Origin: an uncultured Alphaproteobacteria bacterium
Lineage (GTDB): Bacteria > Pseudomonadota > Alphaproteobacteria > Rs-D84
Reading direction: 5' to 3'
Length of the DNA stretch: 64,000 bases
Assembly (NCBI GenBank): GCA_944392775.1
Contig: CALXXV010000006.1
Span: forward strand, 153,270 to 217,269
This document shows positions 12,412 to 54,777 of the stretch, in pieces; positions within the stretch are counted from its first letter, which is position 1; every line of letters begins with the position of its first letter. The notes below the pieces were generated by a model. That model worked only from the letters and a program-made list of their open reading frames with translations. It was not told the origin of the DNA and ran no database searches. The translations under genes were made by a program, and so were the position numbers.

Positions 12412-13092
12412 ATGAAACGTTCAATATGGTTTTGGCTGTATTTTATTGTTGCGATTGGATTAGCCATATATTTTGCTACGCGCATAATAATGGTAATTTC
12501 TGGATATGGGGTTAATTCATACGTACGTAATATTTCAATATCTGCGGATTCAAAAAACAAAGATCTAAATGTGATTGCAACGGCTGCTGCGATTGCCCCG
12601 GCAACAAATAGTTATACGATTGATTTACAACAAGTAAAGGATCGTATAAGGGCTGTACCCGGTGTAAAGGAAGCCGCAATAAGAAGGAAACCAGATGGAA
12701 ACTTATCTATAAAAGTACAACTTTATGAAGCAATTGCTCTTTGGACCGACGGGGAAAATTATTTTCCTATATCTGCGGACGGAACAATAGTAAATAAACC
12801 GCGTCAAGAAAGAGATGAAAACAGCGTAGTTTTTCGTGGTCCTGTTCCAAACGATATATCAGAAATAACAAAAGCCGCACATAATTTACTTAGTGACTTA
12901 GATTATATGGAATGGATTGAAGGAAGGCGTTGGAATTTACATACATCTGGTGACATAACTGTTTTACTACCAGAAAAGAACCCCGCAGATGCGATCGGCA
13001 GTTTAATTGTATTAAATAAAAATCATAAAATATTATCAAAAAAACTAACTACAATTGATATGCGCGATTCGTCTAGAATATTAGTAAAATAA
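12412..13092 (+). CDS. ftsQ: Cell division protein FtsQ
   Basis: A 226-residue bitopic membrane protein: a short cytoplasmic tail, a transmembrane segment at about 5-30, then a POTRA domain (INEMENT pattern IDLQQVKDRIRAVPGVKEAAIRRKP reads as the classic FtsQ/DivIB strand-helix-strand, with LSIKVQLYEAIALW after it). FtsQ links the early and late divisome in the periplasm. The end, KILSKKLTTIDMRDSSRILVK, matches the C-terminal beta strands of FtsQ. The position five bases before ftsA confirms it. Slightly shorter than typical alphaproteobacterial FtsQ. Confidence 0.9.
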   Translation: MKRSIWFWLYFIVAIGLAIYFATRIIMVISGYGVNSYVRNISISADSKNKDLNVIATAAAIAPATNSYTIDLQQVKDRIRAVPGVKEAAIRRKPDGNLSIKVQLYEAIALWTDGENYFPISADGTIVNKPRQERDENSVVFRGPVPNDISEITKAAHNLLSDLDYMEWIEGRRWNLHTSGDITVLLPEKNPADAIGSLIVLNKNHKILSKKLTTIDMRDSSRILVK

Positions 13093-13097
13093 ATAAT

Positions 13098-14882
13098 ATG
13101 AATTTATTTGATTCTTCTTTTCTATGCCTAGACATAGGCACCAGTGGTGTCAAAGGAATTGCGCACCGTATTCAATCGGGGCGCATGGAAAGATCCGCCT
13201 TATATACAGTTGATAGTTTTGATACTGTATTCGCCTTAAAATCTGTAATAGACGAACTAGAAAAACAAATTGGCACACATTTTGATTCGGCCTATATAAC
13301 AGGTAATTTTGGTAAGGTTATTTTTGAAATGGTTGGTAAAAATACCGTTTGGGATAACGAACACAAAATAACAGCAAGCGATATAAAAAATCAAATATCA
13401 CAAATAAAATCACCTGAAGACTATTACCCAATTCATATAATACCACTAAGATACGACACCCCATCGTCAAGAAATATGTTTTCTCCGATCGGTCATATAG
13501 ACAGACAATTAATCTCTGCATTCGGGGTAATATTTTATAGCAGGAAAAGACTTGATGAAATATTTTCTTTATTACGCAAGGCTCACATTCAAGCAGAAGC
13601 TTTTTATGACCCACAATTTTTACAGAATAATGTATTTAGAATTCAAAAACAAAACACAATGTTCATAGATTTAGGGGCGCAATATACATGTGCATCAATA
13701 TGGACAGATCGCGGACCCGTTTGGTATGAAAAAATCCCAATGGGAGGTACAGATAGAACATTTGAAATCTCAGAAACTCTAAAAATAGATTTTGACGAAG
13801 CAGAACGTATTAAACGTAACGTTGCCAGCTTAATACCGAAAGAAATGGATAGATTTACTCCTGCAGATACGGCATACGAATTTTCAAGAGCAGATGTAAA
13901 TGACATAATTTTACCAAATTTAGTTGACACAGTTGCCGCAATAAAAAATAGTGCAAATACTGCATTATCAAAATATAACCCCACCAGCATAATAATAAGT
14001 GGTGGCGGTGCAGAAATAGAATCAATAAAAGAATTTTTTGAAAATTCTTTTGGTCTACCCGTACAAAACCTACACCAAGATGCGAATATAAGAGCTTTAT
14101 CAACATATATATGGAACAGCGAAGCAGAACATATAAACGCTTATATTAACAGGCGTCAACGTTTAGAAAATTTTAATAAAAAATTAACCAAAATGTTTAA
14201 AAAGCGGCCAAAGAAACGAATAAAGTTTATACCTATAATGCCAAGTACATTATGTTTCGACATGAAAAAACCCGAAACCTATTCTTTATTTAGATCTGGT
14301 GGAATAACCATGATTCATGTAGATATAATGGACGGTTTTTACGTAGATAAAATTGCAGGAAGCATAAAAGAATTAAAATACATACGCGCTCATACAGATG
14401 CACATTTACATGTACACCTTATGACAGAAAGCCCTATAATTTGGGCAATGGACGCTATTTCAGCTGGTGCCGACACAATAATTTTATCAACCAATACCGC
14501 CGGGTTAAAAGCAGCAATAAAAAAAATAAAAGCAGCATCCAGACGTGCAGGCATAGCATTAAATCCAGATTCTTCTGTTGAAATTCTAAAACCAATTTTA
14601 AAAGAAATAGATGAAGTAATGATAATGGCAGTTATGCCTGGAGCAGCGGGTCAAACATTTAATGAAAACTGCCTGCATAAAATATCCGTTTTATCAGCAA
14701 CACGCAAAAAATATGGTTTAAAATACATAATTTCTGTAGATGGTGGGATAAATGTTGAAACAGCTCAAAAATGTTGGGCGGCAGGTGCAGATTTATTAGT
14801 AAGTGGGTCTTACCTTGCAAAAAGTACCGATTTTCCTTTAGCTGTACAAAAATTGCTAAAGCGTCCAGAAAACAACAATTAA
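13098..14882 (+). CDS. Fusion of cell division protein FtsA with ribulose-phosphate 3-epimerase
   Basis: One uninterrupted 594-codon frame. Residues 1-350 are FtsA: phosphate-1 motif DIGTSGVKG (12-20), a 1C domain with IHIIPLRYD and PIGHIDRQL, phosphate-2 FIDLGAQYT, and adenosine motif IIISGGGAEI. Residues about 352-368 (RLENFNKKLTKMFKK) form an amphipathic basic helix like the FtsA membrane-targeting sequence. Residues 375-590 are a complete Rpe barrel with Ser383, His407, Asp409, Met411, His440, Met442 and Asp548 matching the metal and catalytic residues of known epimerases (IHVDIMDG, HVHLM, SVDGGIN). FtsA anchors FtsZ to the membrane; Rpe interconverts ribulose-5-P and xylulose-5-P. ftsZ does not follow. 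An internal ATG at 14193 could give free Rpe but lacks a ribosome site. Confidence 0.93.
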   Translation: MNLFDSSFLCLDIGTSGVKGIAHRIQSGRMERSALYTVDSFDTVFALKSVIDELEKQIGTHFDSAYITGNFGKVIFEMVGKNTVWDNEHKITASDIKNQISQIKSPEDYYPIHIIPLRYDTPSSRNMFSPIGHIDRQLISAFGVIFYSRKRLDEIFSLLRKAHIQAEAFYDPQFLQNNVFRIQKQNTMFIDLGAQYTCASIWTDRGPVWYEKIPMGGTDRTFEISETLKIDFDEAERIKRNVASLIPKEMDRFTPADTAYEFSRADVNDIILPNLVDTVAAIKNSANTALSKYNPTSIIISGGGAEIESIKEFFENSFGLPVQNLHQDANIRALSTYIWNSEAEHINAYINRRQRLENFNKKLTKMFKKRPKKRIKFIPIMPSTLCFDMKKPETYSLFRSGGITMIHVDIMDGFYVDKIAGSIKELKYIRAHTDAHLHVHLMTESPIIWAMDAISAGADTIILSTNTAGLKAAIKKIKAASRRAGIALNPDSSVEILKPILKEIDEVMIMAVMPGAAGQTFNENCLHKISVLSATRKKYGLKYIISVDGGINVETAQKCWAAGADLLVSGSYLAKSTDFPLAVQKLLKRPENNN

Positions 14883-14911
14883 AAACCTGTGCATAAAAAC
14901 ACAGGTTTTTT
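14883..14911 (+). terminator. Intrinsic terminator after the ftsA-rpe fusion
   Basis: AAACCTGTG and CACAGGTTT form a nine-pair stem with an eight-base A-rich loop, followed by a T run. It starts right after the stop codon and shows that ftsZ is not co-transcribed. Confidence 0.88.
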
Positions 14912-15020
14912 GCAAACAATGTCATAAATAAAATTTAAATTTAGCAATAAATTACATCATTTAAATCCATAGGGATTTTGGTTCAAGACTATAAGAAAGC
15001 CCAGATTTATAACTTGTTTG

Positions 15021-40604: not shown

Positions 40605-43019
40605 TTATAAATTACCAGCTCCTTGCTTTTTCAAGTACTCTTCAACAAAGTTATTACCATATTGTTTATATAATTCTTCCGCTAATAAAACTGAAGAACG
40701 ACCAGACTCAAATAAACGAAGCATATTTCCAAGTCCACCAAGTTCAGTATTTAAAATAACAGATTCCCCATTAACTGGTCTTGATAACAGAACAGCACGT
40801 TTTAAATTTGGATATGCTTTTCCTTGAATGAAAGCCATTTCCAGAGGATTCAAATTCCAATGTGCATAATCATTAACATCTGCAGCAGGATTTCTAAAGA
40901 ATAAAACAGTCTGGGCTTGTCCACGAACTACATCACCGATACCTAATTTATCAAGAACATTAGCGCGTTGGAAAGCGACCATATAAGCCTGACGATTTTT
41001 ACGACCTTCTTGTAAACCTGCTATAAAATTATCACGGAACATTTTATTTTCTAACATAGGTGCCGTTTCATCGATCATAATTAATGAAGGATTTCCTCCA
41101 GATACTGTTACATTATTTATTCTATGTAAAATATAAGAAATTACAGCTGGTGCTAAAACTTCATCTTGTAAAATTTCTGTAAAATCAAAAGTAGTAAGTC
41201 TTGAATCTAAATCTAACGTATCAGCAGTTTCATTAAACATATCACCATACTGTAAAGGATCGACCCACTTTTTAAGTGCGGCGCGCATATTACCCGAAGA
41301 TGAAAAACAGCTTTCCCATAAATTTTTAAGTAACCTATCCTCTGTTTTTAAATAATCAAAATTCACAGAAACAGCACGTGCAATTTCATCTGCCGAATTT
41401 GGATCATTTTGTCCAGAAATCATTGCCAGCCAACGACGCAGAAAAGCCCTGTTTCCAGCATTATCCTGCATTTTTAACGGATTCAAATGTGTTTGAAAAT
41501 CTATTAAAGATTTTTCTTTCTCTTTACATTGCATAGTAATATACTTACCACCAACAGCCAAAGTGAATATTTCTGCACCTTTATTTCTATCAAAAAAGAA
41601 TGCTTTCAATTTTTTATGACGTAAAGATTGAGCAATCAAAAACGAGAATAAAGTAGTTTTACCACCACCAGTTGGACCTATTGTAAGCGTATGTCCTACT
41701 GCTGCAGGTTTATCAGAAACATGAAATTGAAATTGATAAGGTGTTCCTTGTGCAGTTGGGAAAATAACAAGTGGTCCTTGCCCCCAGTCACTATTAGTTA
41801 CCCCAGTCGGTTGACTAGACATTGGTATACTAATTGCTGCTGTTCTAGATAACATTTTAAAACTGCGTGGGAATACATCAAAACCAGGTATTTGTGCAAA
41901 CCACGATACTTTAGAAGCAAAAGTTTCTACTACCGGAGAAACACCGAACGAAGCAGATATTTTTTTAAATTCGTCTATAAAATTCTGCAAAGATTCTTCT
42001 GTTGAACCAAAAATTATGAATAAAGGATAATAATTTACCAATGTCTGATTTCCAGAAATATTTTCATCCATAGCCATCTTAGCTTCTGAAATTTGTTCTT
42101 CAGAAGAAAACTCATTTTCTTCTATTGTAGCTTTTTTCTGGCGAAAAACTTTTTCTACATCAGCTGTACCCATTATACCGAATGCATTCATACATATCAT
42201 TTCCGTCTGAATTGTAGATATACTATTAAAAAAGTCTTCATCTAAATAATCAGGTGAAAATTTAAAAGAAATCATTGCTGCAAAAGATTGTTTATTTCCA
42301 CTTAAATACTTTACTAAACCGTCTTTTAAAAATATGACATCATCAACAGTTGTAAGATCTGATATACGTTGATCACATACTATCGGTGAAGGTTTAGTAA
42401 TAGGAGATAATATACGTCCAAAAAACTTTGCCATATTGTTTTTTGAATCATTACGTAATACAGAAGGTCTATACGCAGCTAAAATAGATTCTAAATAATT
42501 TCCGTACTGATTTAGTTTTTCACGGGCATTATTACCATTTACAGATAATATAACATAATAACTATTATTAAAAATTCTTAAACCTTGTTCATGCCATTTA
42601 TCATATATTTTTTGTAAAATAGGTTGATCAAATTCATAATCATTATTTTCTTCAACAGCATCACGTATCATATAAAATCGTAAAAATACATTTGGATCGC
42701 GAATTTGATTAAATAATTGTGAACGTAGATCTAAAAATTTTTCTTTTGTTGCATTATCTTGCATACTTGTCTGTACACCATCAATTTTATAAACACGAAT
42801 AATACTTCCATCAGTTAAAACCATAGAATTATCAGTATAAACCGTTTTAAAAGGTAAATATTGAGAATATTTTGCATAACTAAACTTCGGAAATATTTTT
42901 TTTGATAATATAGGTATGTAAATCATCAAAATTATAAAAAGAAAAACAACCGCCATAATTAAAATTATGGAAGAAATTGGAAAATTACCACCTACAAAAT
43001 AATCAAAAAAACCATTCAT
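40605..43019 (-). CDS. virB4: Type IV secretion ATPase VirB4 (CagE/TrbE family)
   Basis: An 804-residue ATPase. An N-terminal hydrophobic segment (about 16-38) is followed by the CagE_TrbE_VirB domain. Walker A GPTGGGKTT near 446-454, Walker B LIMIDETAPML, then a conserved arginine-rich stretch (GLQEGRKNRQAYMVAFQRA). VirB4 energises assembly and transport in type IV secretion systems. Only virB3 is adjacent; no virB6, virB8-11 or virD4 is present within the window, so other parts must lie elsewhere or the pair is relic. Confidence 0.92.
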   Translation of the reverse strand: MNGFFDYFVGGNFPISSIILIMAVVFLFIILMIYIPILSKKIFPKFSYAKYSQYLPFKTVYTDNSMVLTDGSIIRVYKIDGVQTSMQDNATKEKFLDLRSQLFNQIRDPNVFLRFYMIRDAVEENNDYEFDQPILQKIYDKWHEQGLRIFNNSYYVILSVNGNNAREKLNQYGNYLESILAAYRPSVLRNDSKNNMAKFFGRILSPITKPSPIVCDQRISDLTTVDDVIFLKDGLVKYLSGNKQSFAAMISFKFSPDYLDEDFFNSISTIQTEMICMNAFGIMGTADVEKVFRQKKATIEENEFSSEEQISEAKMAMDENISGNQTLVNYYPLFIIFGSTEESLQNFIDEFKKISASFGVSPVVETFASKVSWFAQIPGFDVFPRSFKMLSRTAAISIPMSSQPTGVTNSDWGQGPLVIFPTAQGTPYQFQFHVSDKPAAVGHTLTIGPTGGGKTTLFSFLIAQSLRHKKLKAFFFDRNKGAEIFTLAVGGKYITMQCKEKEKSLIDFQTHLNPLKMQDNAGNRAFLRRWLAMISGQNDPNSADEIARAVSVNFDYLKTEDRLLKNLWESCFSSSGNMRAALKKWVDPLQYGDMFNETADTLDLDSRLTTFDFTEILQDEVLAPAVISYILHRINNVTVSGGNPSLIMIDETAPMLENKMFRDNFIAGLQEGRKNRQAYMVAFQRANVLDKLGIGDVVRGQAQTVLFFRNPAADVNDYAHWNLNPLEMAFIQGKAYPNLKRAVLLSRPVNGESVILNTELGGLGNMLRLFESGRSSVLLAEELYKQYGNNFVEEYLKKQGAGNL

Positions 43020-43020
43020 T

Positions 43021-43317
43021 TTAAGCTGCTAATCTCCCTGGAATTTTTTTTATAAATAGTTGTATTTTAGACGAAATTATTTGTCCTAATTGTGGTTCTT
43101 TTTTAGAAAAGAAAGCCAAAATCATATGAACAATACATACAGAAATTAAGAAATATAACGGGGATATAGAGCTATTGAACCCATAAAAAAGCAAACCTAA
43201 TACAAAAAAAACTATAAAAATAATAAATTGAACCGCAAAATTTATCACAGCAAGCGAATAAGGCACATAAAAAATACGTGCAGGGTTTGCCAATGCTTTT
43301 AATACTTGTTGTTTCAT
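43021..43317 (-). CDS. virB3: Type IV secretion protein VirB3
   Basis: A 98-residue inner-membrane protein with two transmembrane helices near 22-46 and 50-68 and a basic tail, the usual VirB3 size and topology. LKALANPARIFYVPYSLAVINF matches the VirB3 N-terminal region (L-x-RPxMxxGVPY). It ends one base before virB4, the conserved virB3-virB4 order. First gene of a leftward unit that starts at the candidate origin. Confidence 0.85.
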   Translation of the reverse strand: MKQQVLKALANPARIFYVPYSLAVINFAVQFIIFIVFFVLGLLFYGFNSSISPLYFLISVCIVHMILAFFSKKEPQLGQIISSKIQLFIKKIPGRLAA

Positions 43318-50589: not shown

Positions 50590-51735
50590 CTAACTTCCTT
50601 TTGCAGACAACTGTTGGTCTTTATGAATATGTGCGTTTTGACATAGACCGAAACCGAACATCAGCGATAAAAGACTGCTGCCACCAAAAGACATCAAAGG
50701 CAGTGGTACGCCTACGGTCGGCATCAAACCCAAAACCATAGAGATATTTATAAAATAATAAATGAAAAAGTTCAACATAAAACCAAAACAGACCAATTGT
50801 CCAAATCGATTTCTGCAGGTTTTAGCGCACCAGAATAGCACGATAATTATTACTGTATATAGCATTAATAGTGAAAAAGCACCCAAGAAACCGAACTCTT
50901 CACCAAGCATAGTAAATATAAAATCAGTTTGTTTTTCTGGCAAGAAAGATTGTTGTGATTGTGTTCCTGCCATATAACCCTTACCTAAGATACCGCCACT
51001 ACCAAAAGCGATTTTTGCTTGGTTAATTTGATAACCTGCACCTTGTGCATCATGATCAGGATTTATAAAAGTAATAATTCTGTCGCGTTGATAATCGTGC
51101 AAACCACCGTACCATACAAGCGGTGCAGACAGTAGTCCAAGGATAATTGCAATAATAAACCATTTTTTCTGTGCGCCAACTATATAGAACATACCAACTG
51201 TAATCATACCAAGAGATAAAGCTGTACCAAGATCGGGTTGAAAAACTATTAACAAGAAAGGTACTGCCAACATAGCCGCAGGTACCACATAATTTTTTAG
51301 TTGTGATAATTCGACAGAATTCATCCAAGCAAAGTATCTTGCCAAAGCCAAAACAAGTGCAATCTTAATTAACTCTGATGGTTGAACATGAAAGAAACCA
51401 AGATTAAGCCACCTTTGTGCACCCATACCAGTATGTCCGACAAAAGTGACAAGAACAATCATTATAAAAGCGATAATATAAATTAAGTATGCAGACTTTA
51501 TCCATGTTTTTATATTTATGAATGCCGCGAAAAAGAATACTGCAAAACCCAGTAAAATTTTAATCAGTTGCGACATAGCAAATGGTTGCCACGAACCGCC
51601 ACCTGCAGAATATAGAACAACTATAGAAATGGCCAAAACTAAGCACATAGGAATAAATAAAGCCCAAGAAAAACGACTAAGTTTTTCAGAAAAACTCATC
51701 ATATTAGCATTAGAAACGCGCGTTTGTCTGGTCAT
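50590..51735 (-). CDS. mrdB: Peptidoglycan polymerase RodA
   Basis: A 381-residue SEDS-family polytopic protein with about ten membrane helices. Typical segments are GHTGMGAQRWLNLGFFHVQPSELIKIALVLALARYF, FQPDLGTAL and the C-terminal PTVGVPLPLMSFGGSSLL. RodA polymerises glycan strands for side-wall growth with PBP2. It follows mrdA directly (adjacent codons) in the leftward mreC-mreD-mrdA-mrdB order. Confidence 0.95.
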   Translation of the reverse strand: MTRQTRVSNANMMSFSEKLSRFSWALFIPMCLVLAISIVVLYSAGGGSWQPFAMSQLIKILLGFAVFFFAAFINIKTWIKSAYLIYIIAFIMIVLVTFVGHTGMGAQRWLNLGFFHVQPSELIKIALVLALARYFAWMNSVELSQLKNYVVPAAMLAVPFLLIVFQPDLGTALSLGMITVGMFYIVGAQKKWFIIAIILGLLSAPLVWYGGLHDYQRDRIITFINPDHDAQGAGYQINQAKIAFGSGGILGKGYMAGTQSQQSFLPEKQTDFIFTMLGEEFGFLGAFSLLMLYTVIIIVLFWCAKTCRNRFGQLVCFGFMLNFFIYYFINISMVLGLMPTVGVPLPLMSFGGSSLLSLMFGFGLCQNAHIHKDQQLSAKGS

Positions 51736-53511
51736 TTATTTTATTCTTTTTAACAATTCTTTCATTGTTGCAGCTGCCGTATTTGCTGCAGGTCCACTTC
51801 CACCAGAATGTTCCGTAATAACACATATTGCAAATTTTGGTTTATCAGTTGGTGCATAACCTACAAACAAACCATGATTTCGCATATTCCATTTCAACTG
51901 TTCGTTTGTTAAAACACCGCTAAGACGTTCTTCTTTTGATATACTGCGAACCTGGGAAGTACCGGTTTTTCCACCCATTTTTTTACCGTCAACATTTATT
52001 GCACTGCCAGCGGCCGTTCCTCCTTTTTTTGTTACTTGTTCAAGTCCGTTTAAAATTGCCTGAATATTCTTTTTTTGTAAACCTAAATTTGCAAATTGTG
52101 GTTTTTCTTCTGTTAAAATTAAACGTGGCATTACAGCTTTATTGGATGCAGTTCTTGCCATCATAAGAGCTAATTGTAAACAGTTAGTAAGTGTAAAACC
52201 CTGACCAATACCAGATATAATTGTATCTCCATGCATCCATTTATATCCAATTTGTTTTTCTTTCCAATATCTGTCAGGTATTATGCCACTCATTTCACGA
52301 GATAATATTCCATCCATATAACTTTGAGTGAACCCAAGTTTTATTGCCATTTCTTTTATTGAATCTATACCGATGCGCAAAGCCACCTGATAAAAATATA
52401 TGTCACAAGAATGTTTTAATGCGCTGGCTAAATCTACCCAATCGTGTCCTTCTGGTTTCCAACAGTGATATCTTCTATCACCATAATCCCAGTGACCTGG
52501 ACAGAATATTTTTTCATTTGGTGTAATAGCCCCCGCTTCTAATGCAGCCAAAGCAACAACTATTTTAAATGTAGATCCCGGCGGGTATAAACCTTCGATG
52601 GTTTTATTCATAAATGGTTTCATGTAATCTTTACGTAAAGAATTTATATATTCTTCACCATCATCTGCTCCAAAATTATTAGGATCAAAACTTGGTGCAG
52701 AAACCATTGCTAAAATGTTGCCTGTTTCTATATCTAATGCAACACCACACCCAGAACGATGTAACATTAAAGAATCATACATTATTCGTTGTGCAGCATC
52801 ATTTATAGTTGTTTTTAAATCTTTACCTGTAATAGATGGTTTAAATTGGGTTTTGTCTTCTCCAGTTATACGCCCCGTAGCATTGGTTATCATTACTGTT
52901 TGACCGGGTGTTCCCGCAAGGAAATCATTAAAATGTTTTTCTAGACCTGTAACACCTTCTGTAAAAAATGGTGCATTTGGAACAGCTTCATTTGGGGATC
53001 CAACGTACCCGAAAATTTGTGCACCGGCAGGACCTAATTCATAAACGCGTGAAAAGCCGTTACGAAAATGTAACCCCGGTAAATTTCTAGCTTGTATTTT
53101 AGCCAATTGATTCCAATCTGTATTTTCGCTGATTAATATTGGTTGAAATCTAGGTTGTTTTTTTATTTGCGAATATATTTTATCAATTCGTTTCTTTTTT
53201 AATTTCAATTCTTTTGAAACAATAGAAATTAATTCTTCAAGATTTTCCGTTTCTTCTGGTATTATATATATTCTATATATGGAAGTATCCCTTGAAATTG
53301 GCGTTCCTTTTGCAGATAATATTTTTCCGCGTTCGGGTATATTTATACGAATTCTGAAAGAATTATTTTCACTTTTTTTTGTATATTCACGATAATTAAA
53401 AAGTTGCATTTGTAACATCCTTAAAACAAGTGCGGATGTAAGAACTGCACCTGCCGTTAGAAACAAAGCACTACGACGGTCAAAAAGGCGTGCAACTTCT
53501 TTATCTATCAT
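51736..53511 (-). CDS. mrdA: Penicillin-binding protein 2
   Basis: A 591-residue class B transpeptidase: N-terminal transmembrane helix (about 14-34), the dimerisation domain with IPERGKILSAKG, catalytic serine in PPGSTFKI (SxxK), second motif in KHSCDIYFYQ, and KTGTSQ. It crosslinks the glycan made by RodA during elongation. Overlaps mreD by 11 bases upstream. Confidence 0.96.
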   Translation of the reverse strand: MIDKEVARLFDRRSALFLTAGAVLTSALVLRMLQMQLFNYREYTKKSENNSFRIRINIPERGKILSAKGTPISRDTSIYRIYIIPEETENLEELISIVSKELKLKKKRIDKIYSQIKKQPRFQPILISENTDWNQLAKIQARNLPGLHFRNGFSRVYELGPAGAQIFGYVGSPNEAVPNAPFFTEGVTGLEKHFNDFLAGTPGQTVMITNATGRITGEDKTQFKPSITGKDLKTTINDAAQRIMYDSLMLHRSGCGVALDIETGNILAMVSAPSFDPNNFGADDGEEYINSLRKDYMKPFMNKTIEGLYPPGSTFKIVVALAALEAGAITPNEKIFCPGHWDYGDRRYHCWKPEGHDWVDLASALKHSCDIYFYQVALRIGIDSIKEMAIKLGFTQSYMDGILSREMSGIIPDRYWKEKQIGYKWMHGDTIISGIGQGFTLTNCLQLALMMARTASNKAVMPRLILTEEKPQFANLGLQKKNIQAILNGLEQVTKKGGTAAGSAINVDGKKMGGKTGTSQVRSISKEERLSGVLTNEQLKWNMRNHGLFVGYAPTDKPKFAICVITEHSGGSGPAANTAAATMKELLKRIK

Positions 53512-53959
53512 CGCAAACCTTTTGTATTAAAGCTGTTATCGGAATATATAAAGTAGATACCCATGCAAATAACCAAACAGATTTTATGAATATAGAAAAA
53601 TTAAAATTCATAAAGGATAATATCAATGTAGATATACCAAAGAAAACCATAAATATTTGTAAAGCATTTTTATCTAATCTGGACAAATCAATAAAAGATT
53701 GAAAGCCGTTTATCGCATAAAAAATACAATATGCCGCAGTCCAATAAAAAAGAGAATCAAATTTATAATCTATCAAAAAACAAAAAATAATAGCAAAAGG
53801 AGCAAACCATGGAATAGGTTTTACGAAAGAGCAATAAAATATGGGAATAATTGCAAGTATTCCAGCAGGATTCCAAAATACGACAGACAGTCGCCATAAT
53901 ATTATTACGGAAATATAAGGAAAAGCTAATTTTAAAAAATGTATTATTTTACTTTTCAT
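53501..53959 (-). CDS. mreD: Rod shape-determining protein MreD-like
   Basis: A 152-residue polytopic membrane protein with five or six hydrophobic segments and few charged residues, the size and topology of MreD. Sequence identity to well-known MreD is not obvious, and the call rests on position between mreC (ATGA overlap at 53956-53959) and mrdA. Confidence 0.85.
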   Translation of the reverse strand: MKSKIIHFLKLAFPYISVIILWRLSVVFWNPAGILAIIPIFYCSFVKPIPWFAPFAIIFCFLIDYKFDSLFYWTAAYCIFYAINGFQSFIDLSRLDKNALQIFMVFFGISTLILSFMNFNFSIFIKSVWLFAWVSTLYIPITALIQKVCDDR

Positions 53960-54777
53960 TTATATTCGTCTTGTTTATCAAATAAAAGTACTATAACACG
54001 AGAAATTTCTTTAGGTTGTAAAATATCGACATCTGTTTCATTTATCATATTACCAACGAATATGCCATTTGGTAAAACGCCGCTTATATTACTTGTTACT
54101 AATTTTATACCGCCAGACGGTTGAAATTCAGGGTCACTAAAGAATCCTATTGTTGGGGTATCAGAACCATTTCCTTGCATAAAACCGTATACTTCTGAAC
54201 CTGATATTCTAACTGGAATATTTGAATTAGAGTCCATTAAAGAACGAACGCGTGAAAAATTCGGGGCAACATCAGTTAAAATTCCTACTAAACGCCCGTC
54301 TGTAGAAATTACAGCCATACCATTTTCAAGTCCTTGTTTTATTCCTTTGTTTATAAAAAATGTATTATGATGAAAAGCGGAATTATCATATGTTATATCG
54401 GCTATCACAGAAGCATGTGGTTGAGATTGAATTATATCCAGTTCTTTGGATAATTTTTGATTTTCTAATATGGCTATTTCACATACGTTTTTATTTTTTA
54501 ACGCTTCATCTAAACGAAATCGTAATTCTTCATTTTCAGTACGTAAATTAGATAATTCTCGTATTGTATCAACTGTATCACCTATTACGCGTATTGGCCA
54601 AGTTATTATATCTCCAACCCAGTTTGCAACTGGTAAAATGGCATGGGCCAATCCGTTCATTATTTTGTAATCGGGTTTTGCGATCATTATATATATGAAT
54701 AGAATAGGCAAAACAGCTGCAGCAAGTGCAGATTTTATTATGGTATGTAATTTTGAAGATGTTTTGCTTTGTGTCAT
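53956..54777 (-). CDS. mreC: Rod shape-determining protein MreC
   Basis: A 273-residue bitopic protein: transmembrane helix at about 13-32, a coiled coil at about 60-105 (IRELSNLRTENEELRFRLDEAL) and the MreC beta domain with DITYDNSAFHHNTFFINKGIKQGLENGMAVIS and GRLVGILTDVAPNFSRVRSLMD. It scaffolds the elongation complex in the periplasm. mreB, usually just upstream, is replaced here by the divergent rpmI unit, so MreB is encoded elsewhere or absent. Confidence 0.93.
   Translation of the reverse strand: MTQSKTSSKLHTIIKSALAAAVLPILFIYIMIAKPDYKIMNGLAHAILPVANWVGDIITWPIRVIGDTVDTIRELSNLRTENEELRFRLDEALKNKNVCEIAILENQKLSKELDIIQSQPHASVIADITYDNSAFHHNTFFINKGIKQGLENGMAVISTDGRLVGILTDVAPNFSRVRSLMDSNSNIPVRISGSEVYGFMQGNGSDTPTIGFFSDPEFQPSGGIKLVTSNISGVLPNGIFVGNMINETDVDILQPKEISRVIVLLFDKQDEYK

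Follow-up and report, generated by a model that had tools for sequence, protein, structure and literature searches.

Gene content of the locus

The stretch of DNA analysed here (the window, 64,000 nucleotides) belongs to a genome of 0.86 Mb (96% complete) of the genus Candidatus Enterousia, an alphaproteobacterial lineage of the order Rs-D84 (PMC12306168). At positions 13098-14882 of its forward strand lies a single open frame of 594 codons without a stop, which joins the division protein FtsA to ribulose-phosphate 3-epimerase (Rpe). The continuity of this frame had been claimed in the initial annotation, and both parts of the 594-residue product are indeed recognised by structure comparison and by Pfam (FtsA at residues 189-323, E 3.7e-13; Ribul_P_3_epim at 382-573, E 6.5e-42), with NCBIfam and Pfam agreeing on the order FtsA, then Rpe. 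The FtsA part (residues 1-342; 13098-14123, forward strand) has an actin fold with conserved ATP-site residues. An amphipathic helix (about residues 343-367) and a basic linker (368-376), encoded at 14124-14225 of the same strand, lead over to the TIM barrel of Rpe (residues 377-591; 14226-14870, forward strand).

The gene ftsQ ends 5 bp upstream of the fusion gene (12412-13092, forward strand; Pfam FtsQ_DivIB_C, E 3.3e-9; POTRA_1, E 4.9e-7), and ftsZ does not follow the fusion gene, both as first noted. Directly after the stop codon, a terminator-like inverted repeat can be read from the sequence by eye (14883-14914, forward strand). The reverse strand of the window carries rodA, which encodes the elongation SEDS protein (50590-51735; TIGR02210, 403 bits, above cut-off), mrdA for PBP2 (51736-53511; TIGR03423, 531 bits, above cut-off) and mreC (53956-54777; MreC models with E-values down to 1.5e-25, under their cut-offs). 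Genes resembling the type IV secretion genes virB4 and virB3 were recognised by eye at 40605-43317, and further apparent type IV secretion genes lie elsewhere in the source genome (L223, 1527-8109; also by eye).

Further division genes are found in the source genome. An FtsW-type SEDS protein is encoded between mraY and murG (best model TIGR02614, 237.8 bits, below cut-off), and FtsL adjoins an FtsI-like transpeptidase. The 15 genus genomes examined for these families each encode two SEDS proteins (three in one of them) and four to five transpeptidases. A motif search for MreB returned nothing in 1.9 Mb of fusion-family loci, which are parts of genomes and hence uninformative on this point.

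Distribution and integrity of the fusion

Comparison with related genomes confirms, at the level of sequence, that FtsA-Rpe is a genuine two-domain gene ancestral to one family of the order. Of 156 Candidatus Enterousia genomes, 149 carry the fusion (102/103 if only high-quality genomes are counted), as do 26 of 27 genomes representing 12 other genera of the family, so that the search for this architecture in relatives, suggested by the initial annotation, recovered it throughout genus and family. It is absent from 18 genomes of other families of the order. A few copies are cut off by contig ends; in one genome (G178), the two halves are located at two contig ends. Many studies, covering gut metagenomes from many different hosts, contributed the Candidatus Enterousia records.

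The fusion might be an artefact, that is, a frameshift, an assembly error or an internal start from which Rpe is made separately, but we consider the chance of this negligible. No point in favour of an artefact was found, and the same frame is found in 175 genomes, which were recovered from many hosts in many independent studies. A stop or frameshift near 14190-14220, or use of the ATG at 14193 as the conserved start of Rpe, had been named as observations that would speak against a fusion. None of the relatives covering the region has a stop or frameshift there. Moreover, conservation is poor in the 45 columns that precede the Rpe motif, and in each of them, the one with this ATG included, methionine occurs in at most 5 of 79 sequences. 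Thus, an internal start is not conserved, which argues against a separately made Rpe. The sequences of the relatives thus led us to reject, at the DNA level, an interrupted frame at the junction as well as an internal start.

For near pairs of sequences, we obtained dN/dS values of 0.06-0.10 (FtsA part, near 0.08) and 0.02-0.13 (Rpe part), so that both are under strong purifying selection. Mean pairwise identity amounts to 51% for FtsA, 69% for Rpe and 29% for the linker; judged from the aligned sequences, the FtsA part is the faster evolving of the two.

Structure and conservation of the two parts

The full chain was modelled with AlphaFold2 from an alignment built from 23 relatives, a fold prediction that the initial annotation had proposed. 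The model has a mean pLDDT of 91.5, a pTM of 0.61 and pLDDT values below 50 at residues 369-374; hence, the mutual arrangement of the halves is not fixed by the model. An FtsA fold at residues 4-343 and an Rpe barrel at 377-591 are predicted. The former includes the 1C domain and aligns over 327-340 residues to the FtsA structures 7q6f, 1e4g and 4a2a with Z-scores of 30-33 (best match 7q6f, Z 33.0), ahead of PilM and MreB (20-25). The latter matches the Rpe structure 2fli with a Z-score of 32.9 and an rmsd of 1.4 Å.

The FtsA part reaches 77.5 bits with the FtsA equivalog model TIGR01174, short of the cut-off of 175.85, which two unfused relatives pass (242.7 and 260.5 bits). As the curated equivalog score is missed, we regard this part not as a certified FtsA equivalog but as a divergent protein of FtsA fold whose gene occupies the place of ftsA. 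Residues D12, G14, D191, G193, G302 and G303 of the ATP site are invariant in 23 aligned fusions, and across all ATP-site residues checked, only conservative changes occur. According to alignments, the 2B hairpin is shortened by about 10 residues, and residues other than arginine occupy the position equivalent to E. coli R300 and T. maritima R301 (counted from alignments), which we take to have a role in FtsZ binding. Both features would fit a release from FtsZ, a weak argument because family f4 also lacks this arginine and yet has FtsZ.

An amphipathic helix had been placed at about residues 352-368. The helix itself is supported, but its extent has to be revised, as it spans about residues 343-367 in the model, longer than claimed, and is followed by a basic stretch. 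Its hydrophobic moment is 0.61 compared to 0.45 in shuffled controls and resembles that of the C-terminal helices of unfused relatives (near 0.6). The junction was correctly described as lying directly after the membrane-targeting helix, with Rpe starting at residue 377 behind the linker. The helix, now in an interdomain position, is retained in all eight genera assessed other than g15 (g1, g11, g12, g14, g17, g20, g21 and g22). In genus g15, it appears from the sequences to be reduced or lost. In three loci of this genus (L250, L254 and L255), the fusion is still one frame, and its FtsA part is degenerate with a poor FtsA score. Genus g15 thus offers a natural test of which part of the fusion is still needed.

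All metal-binding and catalytic residues of Rpe named at the outset (S383, H407, D409, M411, H440, M442 and D548) are present and, moreover, invariant in the 23 aligned fusions. The Rpe part passes NF004076 (180.8 bits, cut-off 165) and stays below TIGR01163 (149.4 bits, cut-off 212.6), so that its substrate is not certain. In 22 of 23 Candidatus Enterousia genomes with a match, the fusion is the sole rpe found; a few other genomes of the genus have two Rpe matches each. The check for a second rpe in the source genome revealed one (L002, 1498-2175, on contig C3), of which no counterpart was detected in the 22 other genomes of the genus with an rpe match. This copy is probably not the housekeeping enzyme, since it is only 29% identical and lies among sugar-phosphate genes as read by eye. 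The pentose-phosphate pathway has been called incomplete in Rs-D84, and a non-oxidative pathway without transaldolase was reconstructed for most genomes of the reduced lineages treated (PMC12306168). An active Rpe would therefore have a use.

FtsZ in the fusion family and its relatives

FtsZ is close to universal in bacteria. A profile built from ten FtsZ sequences of the order and run on the 156 genus genomes and the 27 genomes of other genera gave no credible match in these 183 genomes at E-values up to 10. It returned short fragments at chance level, the best with an E-value of 0.025, and the FtsZ-negative genomes include one that is 99% complete in a single contig. The same profile detects FtsZ with E < 1e-150 in seven of the eight sister-family genomes on which it was run. 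TIGR00065 found no ftsZ in any of the 24 genus genomes searched and clearly identified it in 15 of 16 sister-family genomes, with a weak match in the remaining one (G027). PF00091 likewise gave no credible FtsZ in these 24 genus genomes and misses G027. A PF00091 match in G011 (E 0.012) was rejected because it runs antisense inside a pyruvate:ferredoxin oxidoreductase-like gene. Normal ftsZ is present in 17 of 18 sister-family genomes. It is thus very probable, from these profile searches, that FtsZ was lost in the fusion family. Across the order as sampled, the fusion is confined to family f1, in which FtsZ is not found; of the 18 genomes from other families, none has the fusion and 17 have FtsZ. 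Fusion and absence of FtsZ may represent one evolutionary event, and their coincidence is therefore not a statistical association.

It is very improbable that FtsZ persists in a form too divergent for profiles and that the fusion serves as a conventional anchor of FtsZ with an enzyme attached. G027 (family f5), which yielded neither an ordinary ftsZ nor ftsA or rpe, encodes a 408-residue FtsZ-like protein (L054, 2519-3745) near phage-like genes of the kind that surround ftsZ in families f4 and f2. Its score of only 31 bits indicates that FtsZ can diverge strongly in this order. However, three different models, among them the order-specific profile in 183 genomes, found nothing credible in the fusion family. 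The replaced R300 equivalent and the shorter 2B hairpin also argue against an FtsZ anchor, although this is tempered by the presence of FtsZ in f4.

In two sister families, f4 and f2, no ftsZ was found other than one located inside a phage-like gene cluster (L056, 7038-10425; L060, 9384-13565; L064, 9466-13265; L063, 8033-11922). It adjoins the gene for a head-to-tail connector (PF12236, E 1.1e-124 in L056), with capsid protein (PF19821) and terminase-like genes nearby. From its gene content, the cluster may be a domesticated prophage or a gene-transfer-agent cluster that holds a core division gene. A cluster of the f4 type had no match in 1.9 Mb of fusion-family loci, which cover parts of genomes only.

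Origin of the fusion

In families f2, f3 and f6, FtsA and Rpe are encoded by two distinct genes, which either overlap or lie end to end, except in one f6 genome (G033), in which ftsA is present and rpe is not beside it. In family f4, an extra gene of about 590-600 codons lies between the two (L157, 6630-8411; L158, 6329-8140; L159, 6033-7796; L160, 5554-7362; L162, 6331-8091); it is an ABC transporter in G026 and, according to Pfam, in L157. Since ftsA and rpe are neighbours in relatives and often overlap, the disappearance of the stop codon between them could have created the fusion and is its most likely origin. The fused Rpe sequences form one clade (support 100/100) on a long stem of 2.1 changes per column. 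With a support of 71/84, the tree does not decide whether they derive from the rpe that lies next to ftsA in the sister families.

Comparison with known systems

The fusion shares with FtsA (TIGR01174, PF14450; 7q6f, 1e4g, 4a2a) the actin fold with its ATP site, the gene position after ftsQ and the amphipathic membrane helix after the actin domain. It differs in the complete Rpe domain appended to it, the score below the family cut-off, the shorter 2B hairpin and the lack of a detected FtsZ partner. With Rpe (NF004076, PF00834; 2fli), it has in common the TIM barrel (1.4 Å rmsd) and the named catalytic and metal-binding residues; unlike Rpe, it is joined to FtsA and, as predicted, to the membrane, scores below the TIGR01163 cut-off and is usually the only rpe of the genome. 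The metabolic enzymes OpgH, UgtP, GdhZ and KidO regulate FtsZ as separate proteins. They resemble the fusion in linking central metabolism to division, whereas in the fusion, the enzyme is covalently joined to FtsA, in cells that lack FtsZ as far as detected. As in the FtsZ-less division of Chlamydia, which is based on MreB and FtsK, no FtsZ is detected and septal FtsI and FtsW types are kept. In Chlamydia, however, ftsA was lost along with ftsZ, while the Enterousia family kept FtsA and fused it; a published table of obligate intracellular bacteria (PMC10591338) shows both ftsZ and ftsA as absent from Chlamydia and from one group of Wolbachia.

The initial annotation knew of no such fusion, and we found no paper combining FtsA, ribulose-phosphate 3-epimerase and fusion, and hence no published description, among open-licence papers. 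Nor did we find one on loss of FtsZ in the order Rs-D84 in the same body of literature. The main text of the Rs-D84/Enterousia genome paper mentions neither FtsZ nor division nor the fusion (PMC12306168).

Possible functions of FtsA-Rpe

We assign a probability of about one half to the reading that the FtsA part of the fusion forms a scaffold bound to the membrane and, in the absence of FtsZ, organises the synthesis of the septal wall; the Rpe attached to this scaffold would usually be the only one in the cell. The FtsA part would bind ATP and polymerise on the inner face of the membrane, where the interdomain amphipathic helix would hold it. Without FtsZ, this scaffold would itself organise the septal wall synthase, FtsQL with FtsWI. 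FtsA of E. coli and Vibrio forms double filaments on lipid with FtsN peptide (PMC7613929), which renders a scaffold of FtsA alone physically plausible. On the cytoplasmic side, the Rpe barrel would interconvert ribulose-5-phosphate and xylulose-5-phosphate. Because known Rpe enzymes often oligomerise, we speculate that Rpe may also help to cluster FtsA. More tentatively, the fusion might be a cytoskeletal septum organiser without FtsZ in which Rpe acts as pentose-phosphate epimerase and, in addition, as an oligomerising or metabolite-sensing module. MreB could also be the organiser instead of FtsA. The earlier proposal of an enzyme tethered to the division ring does not hold as worded, as it presumes a normal Z-ring in a lineage that appears to be without FtsZ. 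A coupling of carbon flux to division likewise finds no direct support, and the neighbouring ftsA and rpe genes of relatives allow an origin by a lost stop codon.

Such an origin is also the starting point for a neutral explanation, in which genome reduction removed the stop codon, the parts work independently and their joining has no functional meaning. The separate, overlapping or abutting genes in f2, f3 and f6 and the poorly conserved linker (29% identity) are consistent with this, but the gene was never re-split in the 175 genomes with a match, which represent 13 genera. Neutrality moreover leaves the coincidence with the loss of FtsZ unexplained, though one shared ancestor is enough to produce it, and we regard this explanation as possible but rather unlikely. 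FtsA might instead be retired from division and serve only as membrane anchor or regulator of Rpe, with division carried out, e.g., by MreB and FtsK as in Chlamydia. This would agree with an undetectable FtsZ, with an FtsA part that is divergent, faster evolving and degenerate in g15, and with published FtsZ-less lineages that rely on MreB (PMC7029139, PMC11975371). However, the gene still follows ftsQ, the ATP-site residues are invariant, FtsQ, FtsL, FtsI and FtsW are kept and dN/dS of the FtsA part remains near 0.08. A retirement of FtsA is thus improbable, more so than a neutral fusion.

FtsA-Rpe represents an evolutionarily fixed physical link between an enzyme of central carbon metabolism and a division protein in common uncultured gut bacteria. 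With FtsA kept and FtsZ undetected in a family of about 180 sampled species, nature offers a way to find out whether septation can be organised by an actin-like protein on its own, and this family of small genomes may divide by a mode that has not yet been described.
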